A DNA stretch of 35,051 nucleotides from Planctomycetota bacterium (GTDB lineage: Bacteria > Planctomycetota > MHYJ01 > JACPRB01). The position numbers and the translations under genes were made by a program. Positions within the stretch are counted from its first letter, which is position 1; each line of letters begins with the position of its first letter. Below, piece by piece: positions 3,017-5,363 of the stretch. The stretch spans positions 1 to 35,051 of the forward strand of contig JACPRB010000289.1 in the NCBI GenBank assembly GCA_016190155.1, given 5' to 3'. Under the pieces are notes generated by a model. It was not told where the DNA came from. It did not search any database and was given only the letters and a program-made list of their open reading frames with translations.

Positions 3017-3538
3017 ATGATCGCCCAGGACACTCTGCTTCGCGCCCGCCTCGGGGATCGCGAGGCCTTTCGCGCCGTGGTCGAAGCCCTGGCCAAGACC
3101 GCGTTCAACATCGCCTACCGCATGGTCTACAACGCGACGGACGCGGAAGACCTGACCCAGGAGATCTTCCTGCGCCTGCACCGCAACCTCGGCCAGTATG
3201 ATCCGGCATATCCGTTCCTCCCCTGGTTCCGCACGCTCGCCGTCCACGTCTGCATCAATTGGAGGAAGCGGCAGCCGCGTTCCGCGCCCCTCGACGACGC
3301 GCGCATGCCCGCGCCGGATGTTCCCGTCCACGACCCAAGTTCGGTCCTGCAGCGCGAGATTGAGAACCTCCCCACCGAATACAAGATGGTGCTCACGCTC
3401 CTCTATTATGAGGGTCTTTCTGTCGCGGAGATCGCGGCGGCCATGGAGGCGCCTCCGGGCACGGTGAAGACGTGGCTCTTCCGCGCGCGCGAGCAATTGA
3501 AGGAGAAGCTGAAACCGCATGTGGGAGCTTTGATGTAA
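3017..3538 (+). CDS. ECF-type RNA polymerase sigma factor
   Basis: A 173-residue sigma-70 family protein of the RpoE/ECF class, which directs RNA polymerase to stress- or envelope-response promoters. Region 2 is seen in TDAEDLTQEIFLRLHRNL and PFLPWFRTLAVHVCINWRKR. Region 4 is the C-terminal helix-turn-helix LSVAEIAAAMEAPPGTVKTW. The ATG follows the mtnA stop with no gap. The next gene, 6 bases downstream, is a zf-HC2 membrane anti-sigma factor, so this is a standard sigma/anti-sigma pair. Confidence 0.93.
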   Translation: MIAQDTLLRARLGDREAFRAVVEALAKTAFNIAYRMVYNATDAEDLTQEIFLRLHRNLGQYDPAYPFLPWFRTLAVHVCINWRKRQPRSAPLDDARMPAPDVPVHDPSSVLQREIENLPTEYKMVLTLLYYEGLSVAEIAAAMEAPPGTVKTWLFRAREQLKEKLKPHVGALM

Positions 3539-3544
3539 GAGCTT

Positions 3545-3940
3545 ATGGCTATGAACTGCGACGACTGGAAACTGTTCGTTCAAGAGTACCTGGCGGGGGT
3601 GCTTTCGCAGCCCGCTCAGGCGGCCATCGAGCGCCATCTGTCGGAATGCGCGACGTGCTTCCAGGAGGCGCGCGTCCACAAACTCGTTGAGAACCATCTC
3701 CGGGGGCAACCCGCGCTCGAGGTTCCCGCCGGACTGGTGGATCGCATCGTCGATCGGGCCGCGCCCGCGTCCGCGCCCCGCTTCCGGCAGGAGCTCCTGC
3801 GAATGGCGGCCCTCTTCCTGATGGCCGTTGGAATCGGAGTGGGCCTCACGAGCGCCGGGGTCATCGACCGACTGCCCGACGCGCGCGAGGCGTGGCAGAC
3901 CCTCGAAGTCTTCGACGTCACGGATCTTCTCAGGAGGTAG
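3545..3940 (+). CDS. Membrane anti-sigma factor with zf-HC2 domain
   Basis: A 131-residue protein with an N-terminal zinc-finger anti-sigma domain carrying HLSECATC (HxxxCxxC), a linker, and one membrane span at about 93-113 (MAALFLMAVGIGVGLTSAGV). It should hold the preceding ECF factor inactive at the membrane until a signal releases it, often by proteolysis. The outer segment is short (about 18 residues). An alternative ATG lies at 3551. It is followed after 3 bases by a membrane protein. Confidence 0.88.
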   Translation: MAMNCDDWKLFVQEYLAGVLSQPAQAAIERHLSECATCFQEARVHKLVENHLRGQPALEVPAGLVDRIVDRAAPASAPRFRQELLRMAALFLMAVGIGVGLTSAGVIDRLPDAREAWQTLEVFDVTDLLRR

Positions 3941-3943
3941 CCG

Positions 3944-4468
3944 ATGCTCGCCATGTCCCAGAACCCCGAGCCCCTGCTGCGCGCGGCGGGCTTCTTCCTG
4001 CTGACCGGCGGGGCGTTGATGCTCCTGATGCTGATGGTGGGGGTGCTTCTGATGACGCTGGTGTTCGCGCCCGGCCTTGCCGCGCGCGGCGCGGTCAGTG
4101 TTCGCGAGCACAACGTCCTGTCGTTCCTGACGGGGGTCGTGGTCTTCGCCGTCTTCGCGCTGCTCGGCAGGATCGGCCAGAACGTCCCGCCGGTGGGTGT
4201 CGGCGCGTTGGGCGGCTTCACGATCCTCCTGCTTCTCGGCCTGACGGGTCTGTCCGAGGATTTCGGCCGGCGCTTGGCGTGGATGGCCGGGACGGAGCGC
4301 TCGCGCGCGGCGCACGTGCTGATGGGTTGGCCGACGCTGGCGGCGGCGATCTGCGTACCCGTCGTGGGCTGGTTCATCGTCCTGCCCTACGTGGTCCTCT
4401 CCGCCTTGGGCTCGGTTCCCCTTGGGCTCTTCCGCCGGGAACGCAAGCCTTCCTCATGCTCGCCGTAG
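3944..4468 (+). CDS. Integral membrane protein of unknown function
   Basis: A 174-residue protein with about four hydrophobic spans (roughly 14-42, 61-76, 85-102 and 130-157). No family motif was recognised. It is the third gene of the first ECF module, starting 3 bases after the anti-sigma stop, and so is probably co-regulated by that sigma factor. It ends in a short charged tail. It could be a sensor or target of the module; the sequence does not decide. Confidence 0.75.
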   Translation: MLAMSQNPEPLLRAAGFFLLTGGALMLLMLMVGVLLMTLVFAPGLAARGAVSVREHNVLSFLTGVVVFAVFALLGRIGQNVPPVGVGALGGFTILLLLGLTGLSEDFGRRLAWMAGTERSRAAHVLMGWPTLAAAICVPVVGWFIVLPYVVLSALGSVPLGLFRRERKPSSCSP

Positions 4469-4508
4469 GCAGCGGTGTCTAATCCTCGAACCTTTTCACG
4501 AGGCGAGG

Positions 4509-5363
4509 ATGAAGAAAGTCTGCACAGCGCTCCTGTTGCTCCCTGCCATGGCGCCGGCGCTCTACGCGCAGCACTCCAAAGACAAGGTCGCCCAGAACGG
4601 CGTCATCTGGGCCACGTCGTGGGAGGAGGCCCTCCAGGAGGCGCAGGCCCGCAACGTCCCCATCCACTTCACGGTCCACAAGGACAACTGACCCCCCTGT
4701 CAGTCGATGGAGTCATCGACCTATCCGAACGACAAGCTCATCGCGATGTCCCGCAACTTCGTCAACGTCGTGTGCCACCACGAGACCGGCCATGACCGCG
4801 AGGTGGTGATCGGCCGTGAAAAGAAGCTGATGTGCAGCAAGTACTGGGGCATCGCCTGCGACGTGCACTCGCGCCTGTATCAGGAGGCGGGCAACACGTA
4901 CGAGGGCATCACCGGCGTGCCCTGCACCGTCTTCGCGGATCCGACGGGCAAGGAGCTCTTTCGTGAAGCGGGCGGCCTGGGGGCGAGCGAGCTCATCGAC
5001 CAGATGGAGAAGGCGCTCAAGCAGGTGCCCGGCGAGAAGATCCCGTACGAGATATGGGCCGCTGCGAAGAAGCAGGTGGCCGACGGCGAGGCCGCGTTCG
5101 CCAAGGAGGACTTCAAGAAGGCCGTCGAAGCCTGGACCAAGGTCGCGAAGATGAAGCTCAAGGGCGTGAAGGCGCTCGGCGAGGAGGCGCTCAAGAAGGC
5201 GGAGGAGAAGGGCAACGAGCTCCTTCAAGAAGGCGAATCCAAGATCGAGTCGGAGAAAGAGGAAGCGAAGAAGATCCTGAAGAAGGTGGCGGACCAGTTC
5301 AAGCCGCTCGAGTGCGCCAAGAAGGCCGCGGAGCTCCTCAAGGGGCTCGGGAAGGGGAAGTAG
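4509..5363 (+). CDS. Exported thioredoxin-like selenoprotein (UPPC active site)
   Basis: Read through the in-frame TGA at 4689-4691, the gene encodes 284 residues. Residues 1-20 form a signal peptide ending ALYA. A thioredoxin-like fold follows (NVPIHFTVHKDN), then the TGA as residue 61 in the motif U-P-P-C (61-64), where thioredoxins have CxxC. The cis-proline region GITGVPCTVF (P138) and an amphipathic lysine/glutamate-rich helical tail (about 175-284) come after. Further cysteines are C89, C109 and C117. A 7-bp perfect hairpin with G first in its loop begins 11 bases after the TGA, as in bacterial SECIS elements. GAGG precedes the ATG. A premature stop in a Cys codon is the alternative, but the intact downstream frame, the exact catalytic position and the hairpin favour selenocysteine. 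A periplasmic thiol/selenol oxidoreductase is likely. Confidence 0.88.
4689..4720 (+). promoter_or_regulatory. Selenocysteine UGA with SECIS-like hairpin
   Basis: TGA at 4689-4691 is followed by GTCGATG (4703-4709), loop GAGT (4710-4713) and CATCGAC (4714-4720), a perfect 7-bp stem. The loop starts 18 bases after the UGA and its first base is G. This agrees with the described bacterial SECIS pattern (G among the first two loop bases, UGA-to-loop distance about 16-37 bases). The stem uses the Ser codon TCA, unusual beside the TCC, TCG and AGC codons of the rest of the gene. Confidence 0.82.

Follow-up and report, generated by a model that had tools for sequence, protein, structure and literature searches.

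Thioredoxin-fold selenoproteins that have selenocysteine (Sec, U) as the leading residue of UxxC are a known kind of bacterial protein. Table 1 of a 2026 inventory (PMC13188914) gives thioredoxin (PF00085), the thiol:disulfide interchange protein (PF13098), and an isomerase-like group (cd02966) as bacterial families of this type, and the Trx7/PDZ domain-containing selenoprotein NF041199 is listed as CxxU in the portion of the inventory used here. Further background was taken from parts of PMC9312934, PMC12013277, and PMC4807772. The family described below itself appears to be undescribed: Table 1 of the inventory has no entry that can be equated with it, and no paper on it was found among the matches listed in a search of titles and abstract openings, with subscription journals and preprints outside its scope.

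The family member analysed here lies in a 35,051-nucleotide stretch of a Planctomycetota contig (JACPRB010000289.1), referred to below as the window. We read positions 4509-5363 as a gene for a Sec-decoded, probably exported thioredoxin-type oxidoreductase with a probable His-Cys-Cys-His (HCCH) metal site and a putative partner-binding tail, and put the probability of this whole explanation at about 0.9. Its Sec decoding, fold, family, and HCCH conservation are supported by computation. Coordinates are collected in the table.

Features of the selenoprotein locus and its upstream neighbours in the window
Feature	Position	Strand	Basis
ECF sigma factor, neighbour	3017..3538	+	Sigma70_r2, Sigma70_r4_2
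zf-HC2 anti-sigma factor, neighbour	3545..3940	+	domain match
Small, apparently membrane protein without Pfam family	3944..4468	+	membrane nature by inspection
Predicted selenoprotein gene, putatively exported, thioredoxin-like, 284 aa, TGA codon 61 = Sec	4509..5363	+	homologues with TGA or Cys at same column
Probable signal peptide, residues 1-20	4509..4568	+	inspection of sequence, MKKVCTALLLLPAMAPALYA-Q
Predicted selenocysteine codon TGA (U61)	4689..4691	+	frame reading and aligned homologues
C64 codon, putative resolving Cys of UPPC motif	4698..4700	+	invariant in 18-row alignment
SECIS-like hairpin GTCGATG-GAGT-CATCGAC, loop 4710-4713	4703..4720	+	shuffle p 0.015 and 0.005
HCCH set H95 (4791-4793), C109 (4833-4835), C117 (4857-4859), H120 (4866-4868)	4791..4868	+	alignment and model
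Pro of expected cis-Pro loop, P138 (GVP)	4920..4922	+	invariant in 18-row alignment
C-terminal five-helix tail, residues 180-281, TPR-like	5046..5351	+	model secondary structure

A reading of this DNA made earlier from sequence only had placed a TGA at the first position of a thioredoxin CxxC motif, in a frame open on both sides. Both points hold: the plus-strand frame runs for 284 codons to a TAG stop, and its sole internal TGA is codon 61, in the context HKDN-U-PPC, which gives the motif U61-P-P-C64. Beyond the TGA, 223 codons are free of stops (chance ~0.0013 from base composition), and the other two forward frames of the same stretch contain 5 and 3 stops. Residues invariant in an 18-row alignment include N49, V50, P51, and D59 before the TGA and C64, M67, H95, C109, C117, H120, P138, and G155 after it. 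Open reading frame calling with translation table 11 breaks the gene, as had been predicted, and returns the second part as a separate frame at 4707-5363; the first part sits inside a TTG-started frame at 4422-4691. A frame open across TGA is by itself compatible with generic stop readthrough or with a host-wide code change in which TGA stands for Trp or another amino acid. TGA ends nine of 16 window genes examined, a set that includes the Sec gene, so there is no code change in the host; within the aligned parts of homologues it is limited to the active-site motif, where it aligns with Cys, and the host has a tRNA-Sec. Readthrough or recoding of this general sort is very improbable.

The family occurs in many genomes of the same phylum. 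Matches were found in 32 of the 59 genomes first searched, host included, and a wider draw gave matches in 79 of 294 genomes at E 1e-15. From the first search 30 loci and 40 regions were fetched (the TGA match G041:C137 was left unread, and genome G041 is counted as TGA-less); another 30 loci and 40 regions were taken from the best rows listed in the wider search. The first set comprises 83 distinct aligned stretches, with U in 37, C in 14, E in 14, a gap in 13, D in 2, and N, A, and K in 1 each at the Sec column; every one of the 37 U stretches has exactly one TGA, at that column. The joint set excludes identical copies, rows with matches weaker than 1e-10, and rows in which the Sec column is a gap; these filters remove first-set TGA genes such as L033, L043, L069, L074, and L080. 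What remains is 118 distinct sequences including that of the window, with U in 64, E in 25, C in 12, S in 4, N and D in 3 each, A and W in 2 each, and K, R, and I in 1 each; the excess of Sec over Cys here may be biased because 16 of the 18 rows of the search profile are Sec forms. Homologues with Sec or Cys at residue 61, which had been proposed as a check on the selenoprotein reading, are thus both present (64 and 12 of 118), with Glu commoner than Cys. Stops are not scattered elsewhere in the relatives: within the aligned parts of the 118 homologues there are 65 in-frame TGAs, of which 64 fall at the Sec column and one, in the sequence that has Ile there, lies three codons on. Scans of genome contigs with six patterns outside the Sec site matched 171 stretches and gave no confirmed relative, as did a one-pattern scan with Cys codons at the site, which is blind to TGA forms (37 stretches), and tblastn against plasmids returned one weak thioredoxin match only, in Emticicia.

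By the criterion of bSECISearch, a SECIS element is a hairpin that follows closely on the UGA and whose loop begins with G. The window has such a hairpin, 12-29 nt downstream of the UGA and with G at the loop start. Pieces of 42 nt (z -2.28) and 72 nt (z -1.24) both have it as their best fold; a 55-nt piece folds differently, not into this hairpin (z -1.36). Homologues were compared by a hairpin score that requires a stem with G near the loop start and the loop 14-29 nt past the codon, with significance set at p 0.05 by shuffling. Significant hairpins occur in 30 of 36 TGA genes versus 1 of 33 others in the first set, which is not blind because the score was devised after earlier folds had been inspected. 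For the joint set the figures are 47 of 64 versus 1 of 54 (rank test 6e-19), which leaves 17 TGA genes with no significant hairpin by the same score. The blind rows are the 58 derived from later loci (32 TGA, 26 others); on these loci, L115 onward, a hand count gives 21 of 32 TGA genes and 0 of 26 others. Free-energy z-scores alone are a weaker SECIS sign than the hairpin score, with means of -1.08 for 36 TGA genes, -0.22 for 14 Cys genes, and 0.03 for 14 Glu genes (rank test, TGA versus the rest, 1e-5).

Evidence from covariation for the stem is mixed. It was sought in A2, a set of 12 close relatives without the window, whose own hairpin sits in another register, and the A2 structure was derived from the A2 sequences themselves. 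Standard pairs fill 94.8% of cells in the A2 stem (columns 18-25 with 30-37) versus 21-49% when the stem is slid; the covariation score of 0.197 is reached by 0 of 500 shuffles, but sliding by -3 gives 0.169. Two pairs show exchanges, G-C/C-G and A-U/G-C, the four C-G rows being related. Neither pairs changed on both sides (372 of 500 shuffles as high) nor further pair types (494 of 500) exceed shuffles in A2. Upstream of the gene, a separate leader hairpin (ATCCTCG...CGAGGAT, window 4482-4510, z -2.43) would bury the ribosome-binding site and the first two start-codon bases; it was not seen in the two relatives examined, and recurrence of the leader stretch 4487-4498 within the window is not above chance.

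Sec machinery is present in the host, as the sequence-only reading had proposed to check. The host assembly spans 4.49 Mb in 360 contigs and is 88% complete; a 16S search of it came back empty. It contains a tRNA-Sec (71.3 bits; anticodon tca by ARAGORN), a second tRNA-Sec match of 52.4 bits, SelB (360.5 bits), SelD (358.6 bits), and SelA in two pieces, one at a contig end (369.7 bits, profile 1-289) and one at the end of another contig (257.7 bits, profile 224-454, below the cut-off of 267.9). The SelD match (L013, G000:C87:12245-13165) contains one in-frame TGA, so host SelD, too, may be a selenoprotein. Among the 59 genomes searched first, SelB scores above cut-off in 17 of the 20 with a TGA homologue read versus 21 of 39 others (Fisher 0.016); SelB or a tRNA-Sec of at least 58 bits, a threshold picked after the scores were known, is found in 19 of 20 versus 23 of 39 (Fisher 0.003). 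SelB is the more telling of the two because, among 14 control genomes, the tRNA-Sec model fires above cut-off in 5 and the SelB model in 2. Across the 42 genomes with U homologues, 37 have SelB above cut-off, and three of the other five have a tRNA-Sec (G004 69.4, G010 72.9, and G169 80.8 bits). G006 has a SelB piece of 202 bits that reaches a contig end and a tRNA match of 49.5 bits, both weak, and G201 has no SelB at 1e-65 and no tRNA-Sec above cut-off (45.5 bits).

These observations bear on whether the gene is instead an ordinary Cys-type thioredoxin gene that a chance TGA has disrupted, as a pseudogene or through sequencing error. Such a gene would be split under table 11, as this one is, and a search of the host assembly with the protein returned a single match only. 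The recurrence of TGA at this column across 42 genomes (64 of 118 homologues), the conserved sequence that follows it, mostly with a SECIS-like hairpin, and the Sec machinery of the host argue against a broken gene, which we regard as extremely improbable. The selenoprotein reading of the TGA is strongly supported, on comparative sequence evidence.

Pfam scoring, done with Cys written for Sec, matches the protein to Thioredox_DsbH (PF03190, 34.5 bits) and Thioredoxin_7 (PF13899, 30.5 bits), both above the cut-off of 27. The structure model, built from the 18-row alignment, has a mean pLDDT of 89.9, with low confidence over residues 1-28. It contains a thioredoxin-like domain in which a hairpin (96-109) and a helix (117-127) are inserted after strand 85-90. 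The cis-Pro region and helical tail recognized earlier from sequence are both present; the cis geometry of P138 is that expected for the family, and Pfam TPR matches in the tail are below cut-off only. The best Foldseek matches include 3f9u, DsbH (2ju5), DsbD-gamma, Rp19, and AGR2 (E 4e-6 to 7e-4), as well as YbbN, with TM-scores of ~0.6 when normalized to the target and ~0.3 when normalized to the query; by sequence, the top matches are p19/TXNDC12 and AGR2.

The HCCH residues lie at the base of the inserted hairpin and the start of the helix in the model. All four are invariant in 18 of 18 alignment rows, and the set is complete in 78 of the 118 homologues (in 40 of the 64 U forms, 20 of the 25 E forms, and 3 of the 12 C forms); it is incomplete in 24 U, 9 C, 5 E, and 2 A forms, partly due to short rows. 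The two Cys are spaced C-x7-C in 69 of 73 listed pattern matches, the pattern itself fixing C-x2-H. This set is probably a metal site. It persists in homologues with Glu, Asp, Asn, Ser, Trp, Lys, Arg, or Ile at position 61, and for this reason would serve something apart from Sec chemistry.

Active-site variants recur on this scaffold. Of the 64 U forms, 60 have the second Cys of the motif, and each of the other four has a different residue in its place (Q, R, N, or A); a two-residue mechanism therefore cannot hold for those four. Three are paralogues from G003, a genome with 7 matches to the family (L055:453-1343 UKLQ, L052:451-1353 UPRR, and L047:372-1487 UKAN), each with a significant hairpin, and the fourth is L082 (G033), UPPA. 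L166 (G127, minus strand) has Ile at the Sec column and, in place of the second Cys, a TGA (IPTU); HCCH is complete, there is no significant hairpin as measured from the Ile codon, and Sec may have shifted within the motif. The Glu forms (L059, L061, L064, L068, L070, and others) have Asn instead of the second Cys in 20 of 25 cases and are likely a non-redox branch. A second Sec branch (L067, L081, L149, L154, L165, and others) has the motif H-x-HGF-x-U-x-x-C, mostly with WGMH next and without HCCH, and is represented in several of the phylum's families. After 16 of the 118 rows were dropped as shorter than 200 residues, a tree of the remaining 102, built with the Sec column masked, requires 12 changes for U, 6 for C, and 4 for E. 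Cys forms are spread among Sec forms, and one starred branch sets off 31 rows that comprise 18 of the 19 E rows, 10 rows with S, N, D, or W, and three U rows. As its root is undefined, the tree gives no direction of change.

With regard to export, direction of reaction, electron donor, metal, and substrate, we infer the following scheme. The UGA is most probably decoded as Sec by tRNA-Sec and SelB, aided by the downstream hairpin, and the product, predicted to fold as a thioredoxin domain of DsbD-gamma/DsbH/TXNDC12 type with a UPPC active site, would be exported. Its most likely role would be that of a thiol-disulfide oxidoreductase, of reductase or isomerase type, outside the inner membrane. 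Sec61 would attack the substrate and C64 would then resolve the selenenyl-sulfide; electrons would be returned by a DsbD-type membrane protein, and a DsbD-TM protein (97.6 bits) is encoded in the host. The HCCH set would most likely hold a metal in a structural role, such as zinc, close to the active site; the helical tail would likely bind partners.

The protein could instead be a selenoprotein that handles peroxide, a metalloid, or a metal, with HCCH taking part in its chemistry, for example in metal capture. Retention of HCCH with residues other than Sec or Cys at position 61 agrees with this, as does the location of the insert after strand 85-90, which by thioredoxin topology presumably falls on the active-site side. 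Against this are the nearest folds, which are largely thiol-disulfide reductase- or isomerase-type domains, and the combination of UxxC with a conserved Pro loop, which is typical of thiol-disulfide exchange; in addition, no metal-handling family occurs among the window genes scanned, where an ABC transporter of unspecified substrate adjoins. We hold a metal-handling enzyme to be unlikely, while giving it some weight, and prefer the thiol-disulfide oxidoreductase. A broader and still more doubtful proposal is that the family consists of phylum-wide metal-binding selenothioredoxins in which Sec is usual and Sec-less paralogues are mostly non-redox (above all ExxN) with HCCH kept. If it were true, the basic job of the family would be to bind or handle metal outside the inner membrane, and Sec chemistry would be something gained on top of this job or lost from it.

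The genes for the sigma factor, anti-sigma factor, and small protein lie directly upstream of the Sec gene on the same strand. The ECF sigma adjacency reported from the sequence is thus present in the window; it does not extend to a conserved linkage. The nearest relative, in G004 (44% identity), has the same trio, and its Sec gene begins ~4.3 kb past it, beyond a DUF3472 gene and an opposite-strand PDZ/sortilin-type gene. In 19 other regions, some of which end at contig ends, a sigma match (E 1e-4) was found only in G003:C96, where the sigma factor is 30% identical and lies ~1.8 kb after the thioredoxin gene. The adjacency looks incidental, and control of the Sec gene by the ECF sigma factor, considered as a conserved linkage, is unsupported given the G004 spacing and the single match in 19 other regions. 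An ABC permease gene adjoins the thioredoxin gene here and the trio of tandem copies in G003, and is ~5.6 kb away in G004. Tandem copies occur in G003 (three), G009, G010, and G018.

The family adds apparently undescribed selenoproteins, in several copies in some genomes, and standard gene calling would split every Sec member of it in two. Its natural variants, with Sec, with Cys, with Sec but no second Cys, and with Glu/Asn, share a single scaffold and its HCCH site and would make a test bed for the purpose of Sec.

Comparison with described systems places the protein near several of them. No NCBIfam cut-off is reached by any of 11 family members scored, and the best E-value for any NCBIfam family over the 18 alignment rows is 6e-7. 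DsbH (2ju5; Foldseek E 2.4e-5; TM 0.64 by target length and 0.34 by query length) and DsbD-gamma (1uc7; E 3.3e-5; TM 0.62 and 0.30) share a thioredoxin-fold reductase domain with it; to our knowledge, both are Cys enzymes that lack an HCCH insert and a helical tail. Against the DsbH equivalog NF043050 it scores 22.2 bits versus a cut-off of 190. TsoB (NF045694, rhodanese/DsbD fusion-like) matches window residues 27-87 with profile positions 452-513 of 572, but at 27 bits versus a cut-off of 805 and with no rhodanese match here. The VPGUxxT families NF041382 and NF041383 are also thioredoxin-like with Sec and give weak matches in 4 of 18 and 3 of 18 family members, respectively; they differ in the Sec motif of their name, and NF041383 reaches 20.8-23.3 bits versus 275 in relatives and is absent from the matches of the window protein up to E 1. 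NF041199 resembles the window protein as a bacterial selenoprotein with a Thioredoxin_7-type domain and differs in having Sec at the opposite end of the motif (CxxU versus UxxC) and, by name, a PDZ domain; it, too, is absent from those matches, and it scores at most 15.6 bits versus 300 in ten relatives. The UxxC families in Table 1 of PMC13188914 are like the window protein in their thioredoxin fold and in having Sec first in UxxC. The window protein differs from them in its HCCH insert and helical tail, scores 23 bits against PF13098, below the cut-off of 27, and is nearer to Thioredox_DsbH and Thioredoxin_7.
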